Positions 6,811 to 15,565 of a stretch of 40,129 bases of DNA are shown here, one piece after another (the first letter of the stretch is position 1; each line of letters begins with the position of its first letter). The translations under genes were made by a program, and so were the position numbers. Source of the DNA: a virus; IMG/VR virus record IMGVR_UViG_3300027899_000028, positions 1 through 40,129 of that record. One strand, written 5' to 3'. A model generated the notes under the pieces. It ran no database searches. It worked only from the letters and a program-made list of their open reading frames with translations, and was not told the origin of the DNA.

Positions 6811-7518
6811 ATGGAGGCATTAGCCCGCCTGATCCGCAGAGCCCGTAAGGACAAGGGCCTTACGCTGGCAGAACTTGCCCACAGGCTTGGCGTGAGCCGC
6901 TCGGCCGTTAACCAATGGGAACTTGGCACCAGCACGCCCGACGCCAAGCGGATCAGCGACATATGCGCGGCCCTCGACCTCGATCCGCGCGACATACACA
7001 AAAATGTCAATGCGCTGGGTCAAACCCACATTGACGCACCCGTCACTCGTAGTGCAGCTTTTCCGCAGGGGAGAATATCGGGCGGCGTTCGGCAAATGCC
7101 GGGGACCTTCGGTTGGGGCGGCGCAATTCTCCCGGTGTACGGTTCAAGTGACGCGGGAGCAGGCGTAATGGCGCTGACAGAAGAACCGATTGGGCCACCG
7201 GAGCCGCGCCCGACGTTCGCTGGAGAAACGACCGGCGCAGTCGGCGTGATCGTAGAACATGACGTGATGGCCCCGGCCTACCGGCGCGGCGACCGGCTCC
7301 TACTCCTGCCCTTCAAGCCCGCCAATCCAGGCGACGACGTGGTGCTGTTTTCCGGCAAGCCCGGCGAGGCCCGCCGCGTCCGCTCGGTCGTCCGCCAGCT
7401 CGTCCAGCGCACGGATACGCACTGGATCTGTGCCCAGCACAACCCCGCCAAGCGGGAGAAATTCGCCATTTCCGACTTCCCGCTTTGCTATCGGGTCGAG
7501 TCCGTTCGCAGGCGATAA
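6811..7518 (+). CDS. CI-like phage repressor with S24-type C-terminal domain lacking the catalytic dyad
   Basis: A 235-residue protein. The N-terminal helix-turn-helix (about 1-60, with ELAHRLGVSRSAVNQWELGT) is typical of the Xre/CI type. From about 140 onward it follows the LexA/CI S24 fold, including the AVGVIVEHDVMAPAYRRGD segment. The position normally holding the catalytic Ser (GDSM) is Val152, and the usual Lys position falls in an Arg-rich RRVRSVV stretch. The domain probably serves only for dimerisation, so induction by RecA-driven self-cleavage is doubtful. ATG at 6811 was chosen; TTG at 6802 with GGGAT upstream is an alternative. It should maintain lysogeny through the flanking operators. 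Confidence 0.85.
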   Translation: MEALARLIRRARKDKGLTLAELAHRLGVSRSAVNQWELGTSTPDAKRISDICAALDLDPRDIHKNVNALGQTHIDAPVTRSAAFPQGRISGGVRQMPGTFGWGGAILPVYGSSDAGAGVMALTEEPIGPPEPRPTFAGETTGAVGVIVEHDVMAPAYRRGDRLLLLPFKPANPGDDVVLFSGKPGEARRVRSVVRQLVQRTDTHWICAQHNPAKREKFAISDFPLCYRVESVRRR

Positions 7519-8895: not shown

Positions 8896-9128
8896 CCGCC
8901 CGCCCTATGACCGAGGGGGAGCGCGAAAATCCTCTGCCATGCCCGTTTTGCGGGAGTAGTGCCGTCCGCCTTTCTTCGACGCTGAAGTCGCACGAATACG
9001 CGACAGGCCAATGGAGAACAAACAAAAAGGCGTCGCTCAGGTGCAGCGAGTGCCGGTGTCAGTTCCCTTGGTTCAAGAGCGATGAAGAAGCCATCGCCGC
9101 TTGGAATTGCCGACGCACCTCCAACTAA
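8892..9128 (+). CDS. Lar-like restriction-alleviation zinc-ribbon protein
   Basis: A 78-residue protein with the Lar pattern: a LPCPFCGSSAVRL zinc knuckle near residue 15, a second CSEC pair, and the terminal EEAIAAWNCR. Lar proteins of Rac and related phages lessen type I restriction by stimulating the host modification enzyme. Many Lar-like phage proteins of this size are known only by sequence, so the activity is inferred. It overlaps the gene upstream by 4 bp and lies just before the annealing-protein gene. Confidence 0.8.
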   Translation: MTARPMTEGERENPLPCPFCGSSAVRLSSTLKSHEYATGQWRTNKKASLRCSECRCQFPWFKSDEEAIAAWNCRRTSN

Positions 9129-9147
9129 CACAACAGGAGACATACAG

Positions 9148-9933
9148 ATGCCTGACACGATGATGCAACCCGAGAGCATGGCGGCTCGCCCGTCCATTGC
9201 AGACCTAGCGGCGGCGCTTTGCAAAGCGCAGGCCCAGATGGAAGGCGCCAAGAAGGACGCCAATAACCCGCACTTCAAGTCGAAGTACGCCGACCTTGCG
9301 TCCGTGTGGGATGCCATTCGCGCGCCCCTGACAAGCAATGGCCTGTCAGTCGTGCAGCTTCTCCGCTCCATCCAGGGCGGCGTCGAGGTTGAGACGATCC
9401 TGATGCACGCCAGCGGACAGCAGATCAGCGACGTGTTCGCCGTGCCCGCTACCAAGAACGACGCGCAGGGCTACGGCTCTGCGGCCACCTACGCGCGCCG
9501 GTACGCTCTGATGGCGATGGTGGGCGTGGCGCCCGAGGATGACGACGGCAACGCCGCCGTTGGGTCTGCGGGATCGGCTGGTGGCGGCACGCAGTTTCGC
9601 CCGGAGCGGCGCGGCGGCTCGGATTGGGTCGAGGAAGCGCGGCGAGACGGCAACCTCGATGAGACGCGCCCGAAGGGCAAGCTCCCCGCCGCCAAGGGGC
9701 AGGCCGCGCCGGTCAATACCCCTGCGGCGGCTGGAAGCGCCATCAAGCGCATTGAATGGGTCAAGGCGTCTGTCGCCTTCCTGAAGGACGAAAGCACAGA
9801 CGCGCAGATCGCCCGCGAATGGTGGGTGGAGAACAAGGCCCGCACCGACGTTATCGAGACGGCGCTCCCGAGCGAGTACGAGCGCCTGCTCGATGCCTAC
9901 AACGAAGCTCTTGAACGGAAGGTAGACGCCTGA
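9148..9933 (+). CDS. erf: ERF-superfamily single-strand annealing recombinase
   Basis: A 261-residue protein. The ERF core is at about 15-140: SIADLAAALCKAQAQMEGAKK, then NPHFKSKYADLASVWDAIR, a GLSVVQ stretch, and the diagnostic YGSAATYARRYALMAMVGV. P22 Erf forms rings that anneal complementary strands and help circularise the terminally redundant genome. The tail from about 165 is polar and variable, as usual. ATG at 9148 has AGGAGA seven bases upstream; the more distant ATG at 9082 lies within the Lar-like gene. It pairs with NinB and the HNH protein in this arm. Confidence 0.88.
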   Translation: MPDTMMQPESMAARPSIADLAAALCKAQAQMEGAKKDANNPHFKSKYADLASVWDAIRAPLTSNGLSVVQLLRSIQGGVEVETILMHASGQQISDVFAVPATKNDAQGYGSAATYARRYALMAMVGVAPEDDDGNAAVGSAGSAGGGTQFRPERRGGSDWVEEARRDGNLDETRPKGKLPAAKGQAAPVNTPAAAGSAIKRIEWVKASVAFLKDESTDAQIAREWWVENKARTDVIETALPSEYERLLDAYNEALERKVDA

Positions 9934-10568
9934 TGGACCGCCACCACAACGCCCCGCCGCTGGCCGAGCGGCTGGAGATCGACCACGCCAACCTCGCAGC
10001 CAAAGCAGTTGAGTGCGCCGGGCTCGTGCCGGAAACCCTCGCGCCCGTCACAACGGACGATGACGCGGGAGCCTATGCTGAGACGGCTAAGACGCTGAAG
10101 GGCTGCCTCACCGCTATCGAGACGGCGCGCAAGAAGGAGAAGGACCAGATACTGAAGGATGGCCGCGCGATTGATGGGCACTTCGCCACGATGTCGGAGC
10201 CGGTCAAGGCGGCGGCGGATCGTGTCGTCGCCGCCATCAACGCTTTCCAGACGAAGAAACTGGAGGAGCAGCGCCGCCTCAAGCGCGAGGCCGACGAGCG
10301 CGCCCGCAAGGAAGCGGAGGCGTTCGACGAGCCCCCGCCTCCGGTAGCCGCGCCCGTGATCGCCAAGGAGGCCGCCCGCGTGGTGGGCTTCAGCGGGACC
10401 AAGGCCGCCGCGTCCGTGAAGTGGATTCACGAGGTCACGGACGCCGCCCAGGTGCCGCGTGAGTTCCTGATGGTCAACGAGGCGGCGATCAAGGCGGCCA
10501 TTGCCGGAGGCCGTCGCGACATCCCCGGCGTGCGCATCTTTGAACAGGTCAGGACGGCGATCCGCTGA
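9933..10568 (+). CDS. Coiled-coil protein beside the recombinase, 211 aa
   Basis: The centre (about 45-140) is a long charged helix (LTAIETARKKEKDQILKDGR to LEEQRRLKREADERARKEAE), probably coiled coil. The C-terminal part (about 165-211) has VPREFLMVNEAAIKAAI and ends in an IPGVRIFEQ-type strand, a combination I have seen in phage proteins encoded next to recombinases. A nuclease or annealing-partner role is possible but no catalytic motif is visible. TGATG overlap with erf. Confidence 0.7.
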   Translation: MDRHHNAPPLAERLEIDHANLAAKAVECAGLVPETLAPVTTDDDAGAYAETAKTLKGCLTAIETARKKEKDQILKDGRAIDGHFATMSEPVKAAADRVVAAINAFQTKKLEEQRRLKREADERARKEAEAFDEPPPPVAAPVIAKEAARVVGFSGTKAAASVKWIHEVTDAAQVPREFLMVNEAAIKAAIAGGRRDIPGVRIFEQVRTAIR

Positions 10569-11029
10569 TGCCCACACGCTTCCTTGAAACCGACGCGGAC
10601 CGCCGGACGCTGATCCGCTTTCTGGAAGCGCAGCCGCTGCCATTGACCGTGACAGTCGGCAAGGGCGGCAAGCGGACACTGAAACAAAACAAGCTGCAGC
10701 GGCTTTGGATGAACGAGATCGCCATGCAGCTTGGCGACCACACGCCCGAGGAAGTGCGCGGCTATTGCAAGCTCACGCTCGGCGTCCCGATCCTGCGCGC
10801 TGAGAACGAGGACTTCCGGATGAAGTACGACGCCGACGTTAGGCCGCTCCCATACGAATTGAAGCTGAAGCTGATGATGGAACCGTTCGACTTTGCCGTC
10901 ACGCGGTTGATGACCACACGGCAGGCGACGGCCTATCTGGACGGCATCCACCGGCACTTCAGCGAGAAGGGCATTGCGTTGACCGATCCGGGCGACCTGC
11001 TTGCTTGCGCTCAAAGGCAGGCCGCATGA
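10568..11029 (+). CDS. ninB: NinB-family recombination protein
   Basis: A 153-residue protein, close to lambda NinB (Orf, 146 aa), which loads annealing proteins and can substitute for RecFOR. Family features seen: KRTLKQNKLQRLWMNEIA, then GDHTPEEVRGYCKLTLGVPI, and a C-terminal TRQATAYLDGIHRHF segment. The ATG overlaps the preceding stop as TGATG. Its place behind erf fits a single-strand annealing pathway. Confidence 0.88.
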   Translation: MPTRFLETDADRRTLIRFLEAQPLPLTVTVGKGGKRTLKQNKLQRLWMNEIAMQLGDHTPEEVRGYCKLTLGVPILRAENEDFRMKYDADVRPLPYELKLKLMMEPFDFAVTRLMTTRQATAYLDGIHRHFSEKGIALTDPGDLLACAQRQAA

Positions 11030-11827: not shown

Positions 11828-12168
11828 GCGACCAAGACAAGATCATAGAGGTGATGGCGAGTGGCATATGCGGCCCCGGCACCCCCTGCGAGGCGTGTCG
11901 CAATAGTGCTGAACGCGCCCTCTCCACCCTCCACGCCAAAGGGCTGGCGGTAGTACCGGTGGAGGATATGCGGCACATGCGGGAGGTGTTGGATGATCTG
12001 CTTGCAGACATGCCGGACCCGCTTTGCGAGCATCTACACCACCCATTCAAGGACCGGCACACATACGACGAGGATTGCCCGGTTGTGGAGCGGCTTCTTG
12101 TGGCTATAGCCAAAGCCAAAGCCATGCTCGCCGCATCCAACTCCCCCAAGGAGGAAAGCGATGAGTGA
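11824..12168 (+). CDS. Hypothetical Cys/His-containing protein, 114 aa
   Basis: Contains a CGPGTPCEAC cluster near residue 16 and a CEHLHHPF stretch near 68, which could bind metal. The C-terminal half is helical. AAGGAG lies upstream. Not a named family. Confidence 0.6.
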   Translation: MSDQDKIIEVMASGICGPGTPCEACRNSAERALSTLHAKGLAVVPVEDMRHMREVLDDLLADMPDPLCEHLHHPFKDRHTYDEDCPVVERLLVAIAKAKAMLAASNSPKEESDE

Positions 12169-12379
12169 CGACCAGACGCTACGCATCGCCGCCCGCGCGG
12201 TGCAGCTCTACGCCGAGACGCACCCCAGGCCGACGCAGGTCACGCAAGCGCAGGTAGCCGAGATTCTTGGCGTCAGCACCAGGACCGTGCGAAACTACAT
12301 CACCGCCGGGAAGTTGCGGCTCAATGGCTGCGGGCGCGTGCCAATCGAGGCCGTGGATGCGCTGCGCTCTCCCCAATAA
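12161..12379 (+). CDS. Xis-like / MerR-type helix-turn-helix protein
   Basis: A 72-residue protein whose second half is a winged helix-turn-helix of the excisionase/MerR type: VTQAQVAEILGVSTRTVRNY followed by ITAGKLRL and the closing VPIEAVDAL. AAGGAGG is six bases upstream of ATG. It sits 226 bp before the integrase gene in the same direction, so directionality control of excision is the likely role. A transcription regulator is the alternative. Confidence 0.75.
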   Translation: MSDDQTLRIAARAVQLYAETHPRPTQVTQAQVAEILGVSTRTVRNYITAGKLRLNGCGRVPIEAVDALRSPQ

Positions 12380-12530
12380 TTACGCACGACACGGGCTAAG
12401 GCCAATGTTCACGCGCTTTTCGAGTCCGGCCGGGGGCACCAAAGGTGTTTCCGCTTTCTGCACTCAATGGGCGACGGATACCGGAAAGAAAAGGCCCGCA
12501 AGCGATTCTCGAGTGGCCGCACATTCCGCT

Positions 12531-12564
12531 TCCTGCCGCGAAAACTGGACAATCCTGCCGCGAA
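12531..12564. repeat. 12-bp direct repeat before the integrase gene
   Basis: TCCTGCCGCGAA occurs at 12531-12542 and again at 12553-12564, 22 bp apart (two DNA turns, same face). The gap 12380-12605 has no convincing gene; this repeat is the only structure seen in it. It may be a binding site for the Xis-like protein or an integrase regulator. Confidence 0.5.
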
Positions 12565-12605
12565 CTCCCCACTATCTCCCCACGCCACTACGCAGGGGAG
12601 CGCGC

Positions 12606-13592
12606 ATGGCATCGGTGGGACGGCACGGGCGCGGATACCGGGCTCAGGTCTATGTGAACGGGCGACGCGCCTCCAAGGTGTTTCGGACCCAGCGCGAGGC
12701 GAACGCATGGGCGGTTGCCAAGGAACAGGAACTCGAGACGGCCCCGGCGGGCCAGCACACCCTCGGCAAGATGCTCGAGCATTACATTGAGACGGTCATG
12801 CCCAGCAAACGGGGCGAGGCGTTTGAGGCTCGGCAAGCTCGAGCATTCCTGCGGGACTTCCCTGATCTGGCGGCGAAGAAGCTGGCCGATCTGGATACTC
12901 CGGATTTTGCCGCTTGGCGTGACGAGAGGCTGAAGACCGTAAGCGACGCCACGGTGCTGCGGAACCTGAATTGGCTGCGGCACGCCTTCCGGATCGCTCG
13001 AGAGGAATGGCGCTGGATGGAGCGCAACCCGCTCAAGGGACTGCGCATCCCCAAGAACCCGGCTCCGCGCACGCGCCGCGTTAGTCCTGCGGAGGTCCGC
13101 GCCCTGTGCCGCATTCTCGACTACCGCCCCGGCAAGGCTCCACAAACGAAGTCGCAGGAGGTCGCTTTAGCCTTCATGGTCGGGCTGCGCTCTGGCATGC
13201 GCGCGGGCGAGATCCTGAGCCTGGGGAGCGGCAATCTGGACTTGCGCCGCCGGGTGGCGAGCGTGGCGCACAAGACCCAGCACCTGACCGGAAAGCCCCG
13301 CGACGTGCCTCTGACGCGCCATGCCGCCCGGCTATTGGCCCCCGTGGCAGACCGGGAACGATGCTTCACCATATCGAGCGCCGTGCTAGACGCCCTCTTT
13401 CGCAAGGCGCGCGACCGACTAATGATTGAGGATCTACACTTTCACGATTCCCGCGCAGAGGCCCTAACCCGGCTGGCCCGCAAGGTTGATGTGATGACCC
13501 TCGCCAAAATCTCCGGCCACAAGGATCTACGCATCCTCCAAAACACCTACTACCGCGAAACCGCCGACGAAATCGCGGCAAGGCTTGGCTAG
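12606..13592 (+). CDS. int: Tyrosine recombinase (phage integrase)
   Basis: A 328-residue protein. An N-terminal arm-binding part (about 1-45, GYRAQVYVNGRRASKVF), a SAM-like core-binding domain (about 50-150) and a catalytic domain from about 155. Active-site residues visible: Arg199 in GLRSGMRAGEI, Lys223 in AHKTQ, His280/Arg283 in HFHDSR, His305 in SGHKDL, and Tyr315 or Tyr316 in QNTYYRET. ATG at 12606 follows GGGGAG; the longer upstream frame lacks family features. It catalyses integration at attP, whose likely site is the tRNA-like sequence just downstream. Confidence 0.95.
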   Translation: MASVGRHGRGYRAQVYVNGRRASKVFRTQREANAWAVAKEQELETAPAGQHTLGKMLEHYIETVMPSKRGEAFEARQARAFLRDFPDLAAKKLADLDTPDFAAWRDERLKTVSDATVLRNLNWLRHAFRIAREEWRWMERNPLKGLRIPKNPAPRTRRVSPAEVRALCRILDYRPGKAPQTKSQEVALAFMVGLRSGMRAGEILSLGSGNLDLRRRVASVAHKTQHLTGKPRDVPLTRHAARLLAPVADRERCFTISSAVLDALFRKARDRLMIEDLHFHDSRAEALTRLARKVDVMTLAKISGHKDLRILQNTYYRETADEIAARLG

Positions 13593-13597
13593 GCAAT

Positions 13598-13644
13598 ATC
13601 ATCCATAGCCCGGATCATGGCGCGCGGTAGTGCATTTATTGCCG
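13598..13644 (-). pseudogene. Repeat copy A: degenerate end of the 14094-14315 gene
   Basis: On the minus strand it reads PRAMIRAMDDIA and then a stop, matching the C-terminal PRGMIREINKIGE of the gene at 14094-14315. Its DNA matches copy B (13809-13855) closely across about 46 bp. Only this end is present. It lies against the integrase stop and just before the tRNA-like sequence. Confidence 0.65.
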
Positions 13645-13678
13645 GAGTGGGATATACTGCCGCGCTGCGGCGGCGTGA

Positions 13679-13757
13679 TGCGGAGTAGCTGACCGGTTTA
13701 GCAAGGGCGGATGGCTCCTAGCGCCTATGTATGCGGGTTCAAATCCCGCCTCCGGGT
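13679..13757 (+). other. tRNA-like sequence, candidate attP core
   Basis: The 3' half is tRNA-perfect: T-stem GCGGG (13733-13737), loop TTCAAAT, stem CCCGC (13745-13749), then acceptor CTCCGGG. The 5' part gives TGCGGAG, pairing at five positions plus one wobble with the acceptor, and a D-arm-like GCTGACCGGTTTAGC. The anticodon arm is not formed: CTCCTAG would give an Arg (CCU) anticodon loop but the stem beside it does not pair, and the total is about six bases too long. It is best read as an attachment site carrying the 3' half of a host tRNA gene. A degenerate tRNA is the alternative. CCA is not encoded. Confidence 0.55.
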
Positions 13758-13796
13758 CACGTTGATTCGCTGGGGTAGCGCCCAGCCCAAACTACT

Positions 13797-13868
13797 TCAC
13801 ACGCCGATTTCATCCATAGCTCGGATCATGCTGCGCGGTATCTGCATTGCCGCGATAAACTCGTCCGG
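13797..13868 (-). pseudogene. Repeat copy B: truncated end of the 14094-14315 gene
   Basis: The minus strand reads DEFIAAMQIPRSMIRAMDEI-GV and a stop, aligned with DECVAAMQIPRGMIREINKI-GE of the gene at 14094-14315. Bases 13822-13855 match 14119-14152 at 32 of 34 positions. The similarity stops abruptly before the DE residues and no start codon precedes it. It lies between the tRNA-like sequence and the plus-strand membrane-protein gene. Confidence 0.7.
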
Positions 13869-13883
13869 TGGGTATATAAAAAC

Positions 13884-14087
13884 ATGAGCCGTTGTTCTTT
13901 TGTGTTCTATTTAGCCGGGTTAGGTTTTCTGACGGCGGCGCTGTTGATAACCATTATAATGGTTGGTCTATTCTCCACAGCAGAAATTAGGCCCCACTCA
14001 GTTTGGATATTTGCGCCGCTTGCCTCTTCTGTCGGCTGTTTAGCTATTGCAATAGTATTTGCCGTTGTAGATTTTATCCGCACATGA
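13884..14087 (+). CDS. Small two-span membrane protein, AT-rich (candidate moron)
   Basis: A 67-residue protein with two hydrophobic helices (FYLAGLGFLTAALLITIIMV and FAPLASSVGCLAIAIVFAVV). It is clearly less GC-rich than its neighbours, pointing to separate acquisition. Just upstream is TATAAAAAC; no strong Shine-Dalgarno. It lies between copies B and C of the repeated gene end and points away from the late operon, so it could be expressed from the prophage, for example in exclusion. Confidence 0.55.
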   Translation: MSRCSFVFYLAGLGFLTAALLITIIMVGLFSTAEIRPHSVWIFAPLASSVGCLAIAIVFAVVDFIRT

Positions 14088-14093
14088 AGCGCG

Positions 14094-14315
14094 TTACTCA
14101 CCAATCTTGTTTATTTCCCGAATCATGCCGCGCGGTATCTGCATTGCCGCGACGCATTCATCGTCTGAGACGGTGGCCGCGATCATGACGTGATCCGCGT
14201 CCTCTGCGACCAGGAAGCCAACCGTAGTGCAGACTTGCGGCAACATCGGCTCGGAGTGCTTGCACCACATGGCCACGGCCAGAGCGTCCCACCACGTCAC
14301 GCGAACGATCTTCAT
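14094..14315 (-). CDS. Hypothetical protein, 73 aa; source of the repeated gene end
   Basis: Last gene of the late leftward operon, ATGA-coupled to the metallophosphoesterase gene. Starts KIVRVTWWDALAVAMWCKHS; a beta-rich middle (VGFLVAEDADHVMIAATVS) and a C-terminal basic helix (VAAMQIPRGMIREI). I recognise the type as a short conserved phage protein but not its role. Its last 25 codons recur twice between here and the integrase gene. Confidence 0.7.
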   Translation of the reverse strand: MKIVRVTWWDALAVAMWCKHSEPMLPQVCTTVGFLVAEDADHVMIAATVSDDECVAAMQIPRGMIREINKIGE

Positions 14316-15565
14316 GCTGCGGCCCTCGCTTGGAACATGCCGGGATTGACCGTGTGGCGCTCGACTTCGCCGTGTTCCCGGTGGAAAACGATAGCCTTCA
14401 TGGACTGGCGCGAACGGTAGCCGTTGGACGCGGCGTAGGCATCGGCGGGAGGCAGGACGCCCAAGGTTTCGACATGGCAGCCGGGATACTCCTTGACCGC
14501 CTCATGGTGGACGTGGCCCGTCAGCCAGACGCGGTACGACGTGCGGCCCCAGGCTTCCGCCATGTCGGTCGCCATGATCGCCGGGAGTTGCTGCGGCTTG
14601 GCCTTGTCGCCGTGGTGTGTGCCTATCAGGACGCGGCCAAACTCGAAATAATGGAAATGCTGCGGCGAGGTATCGACGCTGACGCGCGGCTCGTTTTCGT
14701 ACAGGACGCCTAGCAATACGGTCATGAACGCCGCCGTCGCCGGGTCGTGATTGCCCTTCTCAAATATGACTCTGACGTTCTGGTGCCTTGCCAGCGCCGC
14801 GCTAATCATGTGGCGAACCATGCGGACCGCCGTCCGCACCATCTTTGGGAAACGGCCGTCCGCGTCCAATAGGTTATTATGGGCCGGGGTGACGGCGGCG
14901 TAACTGTCGTAGTGCAGGAAATCCCCGAGGAAGGCTATTAGCGCCTGCTCTGACGGCGGGCACACCTCGATCAGCCGTTGCGAGGCGTCCGCTAAAAGCT
15001 GCTCACTGCGGGCCAAATCGTAGCTCTCGCCGCCGGTTTCCTCGCTCCAGGCGAGCATGCCGACGTGATGGTCCCCGACCGGGTACACCGCAAGCGTATC
15101 GGCTGACACAGCATGGCGGCCCCTGGTGACCGGCTTTGCCCGTCGCACCTCTGCCGCTACGCCAATGGCGCACTCTCTCCACAGTGCCTCGCGTGTGGCC
15201 TCGTCTGCCTTCTCTGTCACCCATTGCTGAACGACGGCGCCGGTTTGGTCGAATAGGCGCGAGGTCTTGGTTATCCTTTTCGGATCGGGCAACTGGACGG
15301 TGTCGCCTTCATTGCGCCCGGCGAGCCGCGTCTTGTCCCACCTCCCCCGCTCGTTCCCGCTGGCGTCGTAAAGAACCGACTGCCCCTTCATAACCATTGG
15401 TGGGCCGTCTGCCCGAAAGCCCCGGCGCTCGGCCTCCTGTACGCGGTGCTGGAATGTCGACCGCGACATGCCGAGGGAGTCAGCCGCCGCCCGCTGGCCA
15501 CCAAATCGGGCCACGGCGTCCACCGCCGCTTGCAAGGCTTCGTCCGAAAGAGGTGCCCCGGCCAT
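14312..15565 (-). CDS. Metallophosphoesterase with N-terminal helix-turn-helix
   Basis: A 417-residue protein. Residues about 10-46 form a Fis/Hin-like helix-turn-helix (AAADSLGMSRSTFQHRVQEA). From about 160 comes a calcineurin-type phosphoesterase with the full motif set: GDHHVG (164-169), GDFLHYD (214-220), GNHD (271-274), a HHGD segment (317-320) and GHVHH (350-354). Such enzymes hydrolyse phosphate esters, often in nucleic acids or nucleotides, with two metal ions. The HTH/phosphoesterase combination is found in other phages, where its role is unclear. It lies after lysis genes at the end of the late operon. It might act on DNA at specific sites. Confidence 0.85.
   Translation of the reverse strand: MAGAPLSDEALQAAVDAVARFGGQRAAADSLGMSRSTFQHRVQEAERRGFRADGPPMVMKGQSVLYDASGNERGRWDKTRLAGRNEGDTVQLPDPKRITKTSRLFDQTGAVVQQWVTEKADEATREALWRECAIGVAAEVRRAKPVTRGRHAVSADTLAVYPVGDHHVGMLAWSEETGGESYDLARSEQLLADASQRLIEVCPPSEQALIAFLGDFLHYDSYAAVTPAHNNLLDADGRFPKMVRTAVRMVRHMISAALARHQNVRVIFEKGNHDPATAAFMTVLLGVLYENEPRVSVDTSPQHFHYFEFGRVLIGTHHGDKAKPQQLPAIMATDMAEAWGRTSYRVWLTGHVHHEAVKEYPGCHVETLGVLPPADAYAASNGYRSRQSMKAIVFHREHGEVERHTVNPGMFQARAAA

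Follow-up and report, generated by a model that had tools for sequence, protein, structure and literature searches.

Why does a virus genome carry the 3' end of one gene three times directly behind its integrase gene, and how did the DNA between the copies come to lie there? The stretch analyzed here, called the window, comprises 40,129 nt of the IMG/VR record IMGVR_UViG_3300027899_000028. The earlier note, made from the letters of the window, described three gene ends that separate two inserts around the attachment site, and proposed that insertion or recombination had recurred at one short sequence and had each time left a duplicated gene end behind, almost like a cassette array. The features of the junction are as follows.

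12606-13592, plus strand: int, a tyrosine integrase of 328 aa (Pfam PF00589, 6.4e-18; PHROG 1, 2.8e-46; 82-88% in relatives)
13589-13643, minus strand: copy A, a stranded gene C end whose stop codon overlaps the int stop (repeat search and comparison with relatives)
13672-13762, plus strand: tRNA-like segment with an extended acceptor stem and an anticodon loop expanded to 12 nt (Rfam tRNA match and predicted fold)
13797-13864, minus strand: copy B, a stranded gene C end, nearest to the type of the related contig L010 (86% over 64 nt)
13884-14087, plus strand: AT-rich ORF of 67 aa with hydrophobic stretches and without found relatives (ORF list, composition and homology searches)
14094-14315, minus strand: gene C, full length, 73 aa, with copy C at its 3' end (14094-14152); relatives have 71-86% identity
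14312-15565, minus strand: metallophosphoesterase-type DNA repair exonuclease, the gene adjoining gene C (PHROG 704, 1.3e-109)

A repeat search over positions 12500-15500 finds a direct-repeat family of three copies (13588-13644, 13799-13855, and 14096-14152, with spacings of 211 and 297), in which the terminal 40-70 bases of gene C recur as copies A and B. All three share one orientation and are in frame with the end of gene C, reading on the minus strand PRAMIRAMDDIA (copy A), PRSMIRAMDEIGV (copy B), and PRGMIREINKIGE (copy C), each closed by a stop codon. The search of the window with a gene C profile returns C with an E value of 5.5e-50, B with 4.5e-9, and A with 0.006, copy A being the weakest match to C. 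The local alignment scores are 62 for C-B, 57 for A-B, and 41 for C-A, whereas 500 dinucleotide shuffles reach 39 at most. The 32 of 34 identical bases described for B and C (13822-13855 versus 14119-14152) are reproduced, with the identity being high inside this block and dropping to either side. The repeat search, the gene C profile, and the shuffle comparison thus uphold the three gene ends in the same orientation.

We read the region, with a probability of about two in three, as a recombination scar of two layers where int and gene C converge. The ancestor would have had int (plus strand) running into gene C (minus strand), the arrangement kept in L010. Two rounds of homeologous recombination between diverged relatives, inside the 3' end of gene C, would have gained foreign DNA, the tRNA-like segment in one round and the small AT-rich ORF in the other. 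The incoming side would have brought an intact gene C in each round, so that the older gene C would have been trimmed to its last 40-70 bases, leaving copy A as a stump beside int and copy B as a stump in the middle of the region. The likely enzymes would be the exonuclease and the annealing protein of the Erf type that the phage itself encodes. How many events there were and in what order, who the donors were, the part of Erf, and any use of the payloads are inferred.

The stumps resemble gene ends of different lineages. Over 36 shared bases, copy A agrees with the L002 type at 32 and with C at 25, and copy B agrees with L010 at 31 and with C at 24. The informative sites favor the foreign allele by 9:2 for A and 8:1 for B (sign-test P of 0.02-0.03, uncorrected), and copy A aligns to the L002-type gene end with 89% identity over 45 nt (E = 4.5e-8). 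On these sites the nearest lineage is the L002 type for A and L010 for B, and the local gene C appears more distant from either copy than these foreign ends are, which, as the informative sites are few, is support for the scar and not proof of it. The same comparison disfavors, on equally few sites, the simple duplication that had been named as an alternative, in which the gene C end was duplicated in tandem in one lineage and diverged in place, with the payloads entering later. Three close copies in the same orientation are what such a duplication would leave, and C, with a tail that stands apart from all other alleles, could have changed fastest. As A and B each find their nearest gene end in another lineage, and neither in C nor in the source of the other copy, the payloads sit between the copies without slack, and the relatives are single copy, we regard this history as unlikely.

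The tail of C has a GC content of 29%, resembling the neighboring ORF (45%) more than int (65%) or the window as a whole (62%), which points to a joint arrival of the ORF and today's gene C tail, with the join inside the conserved 34-bp block. C also agrees with L010 at 30 of 34 bases in this block, and the likeness could merely reflect the conserved codons AAMQIPR.

In related phages, the junction is found uninterrupted. Among 14 fetched loci with gene C homologues, 10 have a single gene C end directly beside int, and these represent two lineages, namely, nine near-identical contigs of the L002 type and L010. Since the nine contigs form one lineage, the independent junctions are few. In L010, int and gene C overlap by their stop codons, and 63 nt lie between int and the gene C end in the L002 type; neither holds the tRNA-like sequence, the membrane-protein ORF, or any trace of a payload. 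Their integrases are 82-87% identical to that of the window, and relatives otherwise keep the order xis, attP, int, gene C, exonuclease. The stop codon of copy A overlaps the int stop just as that of gene C does in L010, which places copy A in the ancestral position of gene C. Among the relatives, none with just one payload was found, and the order of insertion and later loss does not follow with certainty. An ancestor with several copies, collapsed to one copy in the relatives through recombination between the repeats, would account for their single ends, since direct repeats combined with an Erf system should lose the intervening DNA and the products would resemble L010. This history still requires an origin for the array, and L010 and the L002 type show no payload traces; we give it little credence.

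The searches of related contigs yielded no further window-like genome with repeated gene C ends. A 20-base pattern used for orphan gene ends elsewhere matched only the known gene C loci and the contig L131, where the match is a chance hit in unrelated DNA. Gene C has no match in bacterial genomes, in the annotated phage collection, or in 76 genomes of the order to which the host of the contig L107 belongs, the last being a search without a positive control. The contig is apparently metagenomic and the phage family is diverse in the collection, so an assembly that joined several related phages at the repeats has to be considered; the longest exact repeat between B and C is only about 23 bases, and A and B are identical to no fetched phage and have small indels of their own, which renders a chimera highly improbable.

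Both intervals hold what the earlier note had placed there. Between A and B, the tRNA-like segment reaches 27.9 bits in Rfam, though this is slightly below the cut-off of 29; ARAGORN calls no tRNA in it, and its predicted fold is a cloverleaf with a z-score of -1.46 only. Its matches in bacterial genomes are either short and due to chance or fall on the T-arm of an apparently ordinary tRNA, and an exact search with its 28-base 3' end finds nothing in viral contigs. The 67-aa ORF between B and C has the foreign base composition that characterizes morons (GC of 45% versus 62% for the window), and homology searches, including the annotated phage collection, found no relative. A consensus scan, which misses unusual promoters, recognized no promoter or terminator belonging to the insert, and the two inserts have no promoter or other motif in common at a significant level. 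A promoter-like CCGG(A)GTGGG-TATA after A and B proved to be at chance level, with 298 of 5,000 random window segments scoring as high. Given that neither an interchangeable family of cassettes with these ends nor a significantly shared insert motif was found, the term cassette array is overstated.

Spots between convergent genes are where phages usually take small inserts, and the DNA after int fits such a tolerant, variable spot when the related loci are compared. The sister contigs L002 and L003 are near identical over kilobases except for a patch of ~500 bp (about 6880-7430) reaching from inside int to the attP region, which is a fresh recombination event and indicates that such exchange does happen beside this junction. 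Other genes lie between int and a distant gene C in L057, unrelated DNA lies downstream of int in L055, L056, and L062, and L049 and L054 have an mmgR/suhB-type small RNA there. Relatives thus hold different DNA at the junction, but none was found with other cassettes between these repeats. This phage family varies in the DNA immediately behind int, where small payloads are gained and lost; in relatives these include structured RNAs.

Some of these neighboring sequences can be described further. The mmgR/suhB RNA (RF00519) lies directly 3' of the integrase at L054:6157-6238 (minus strand, 49.3 bits) and L049:6110-6188 (minus strand, 45.6 bits), above the Rfam cut-off of 41; these two related phages carry their own copy of a regulatory RNA of alphaproteobacteria. 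Downstream of related integrases, stretches were seen by eye that start with GCTGCGGC and end with GCCGCAGC or similar ~60-110 nt on (plus strand; L107:11149-11260, L041 about 6500, and L110 about 1600), and these are possibly structured RNAs. About 700 bp downstream of int in L055 and L108, a degenerate-tRNA-like sequence was likewise noticed by eye on the minus strand, for which ARAGORN makes no call and Rfam, searched for L055 only, gives no match.

The attachment site lies on the other side of int.

12161-12379, plus strand: small HTH protein, excisionase-like (Pfam HTH_17; PHROGs excisionase/regulator families; syntenic in relatives)
12419-12442, plus strand: attP core of 24 bp, identical to the 3' end of tRNA-Leu(UAA) (match to the L107 tRNA-Leu; conserved in relatives)

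The sequence of the core is TTCGAGTCCGGCCGGGGGCACCAA, and the core or near variants of it occupy the same position upstream of int in close integrase relatives. In L107, a MAG contig assigned to the Rhodospirillaceae with an integrase 87% identical to that of the window, the core ends a complete tRNA-Leu(UAA) directly 5' of int, and this junction is an attL. More distant integrases in Burkholderia, Caballeronia, Candidimonas, Rhizobacter, and a Chromatiaceae genome also lie beside a tRNA-Leu. The window thus has what defines a temperate phage integrating into a tRNA gene, that is, a tyrosine integrase and, next to it, an attP core that repeats the 3' end of a host tRNA, and its host is probably an alphaproteobacterium. 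As the attP is matched by the L107 tRNA-Leu, the attachment site is not the tRNA-like segment lying between A and B, and since the attP lies ~1.15 kb off and upstream of int, the copies are not grouped around it. A role of the copies as arm sites for the integrase or as repeats connected with attachment, which their flanking of a tRNA-like sequence soon after int might suggest, can practically be dismissed, since the attP has its tRNA-Leu attL partner in L107, integrases 82-87% identical lie beside a single gene end in L010 and the L002 type, and the 3' end of the tRNA-like segment matches no host tRNA in the 76 genomes of the L107 host's order. Of the proposal of repeated recombination at one short sequence, the repeated recombination stands, carried by the payload-free relatives with single ends, the likeness of A and B to other lineages, and the other DNA found at the junction in relatives, and the site-specific part falls.

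For the two-layer scar, candidate enzymes are encoded about 2.5-4.5 kb from the junction, and their presence suggests that they acted there.

9082-9933, plus strand: Erf-like ssDNA annealing protein (PHROGs, 2.7e-41)
9933-10568, plus strand: exonuclease (PHROGs, 6e-10)
10568-11029, plus strand: NinB/Orf recombination mediator (PHROGs, 8e-30)

It is conceivable, though very improbable, that the stranded ends are retained as functional homology blocks for the annealing recombinase, forming a homology-driven loading dock without a site-specific recombinase. If true, such a dock beside int would let the phage gain, drop, or swap small payloads, some of them structured RNAs, and also replace the tail of gene C.

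The arrangement shares features with several known systems. As in integron-type cassette arrays, payloads and short, similar repeats follow each other in turn next to the gene of a tyrosine recombinase, but the repeats here are coding gene ends, the integrase is of the tRNA-Leu phage type with its predicted attP elsewhere and not on the repeats, and no second genome with repeated ends holds other cassettes between them. Lambdoid phages have boundary or linker sequences at the joints of modules, and here, too, a short conserved sequence lies at a joint where variable DNA is exchanged; it differs in being the coding end of a gene and in that old copies are kept. Morons are small independent inserts between phage genes, which the foreign-looking ORF with its odd base composition between two conserved genes resembles, although the consensus scan recognizes neither promoter nor terminator and the ORF is accompanied by a gene-end stump. 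Phage mosaicism is usually inferred from genome comparison; here, one genome keeps the remains of apparently two successive exchanges side by side, so that the joins can be read directly. Phage genomes are usually without repeats; on DNA of 78% identity, the Erf/Exo pair of phage D3 has about the efficiency of lambda Red, and Red-beta needs at least 30 bp (De Paepe et al. 2014, PMC3945230). The locus looks like ordinary mosaic recombination repeated at one spot, a variant of the relaxed homologous mosaicism with Rad52-like recombinases described there (PMC3945230), in which diverged phages exchange at short homologies, with a recombinase of the Erf group nearby in our case; unlike in that mosaicism, the joins here have twice, at the same junction of a single genome, left stranded, repeated gene ends.
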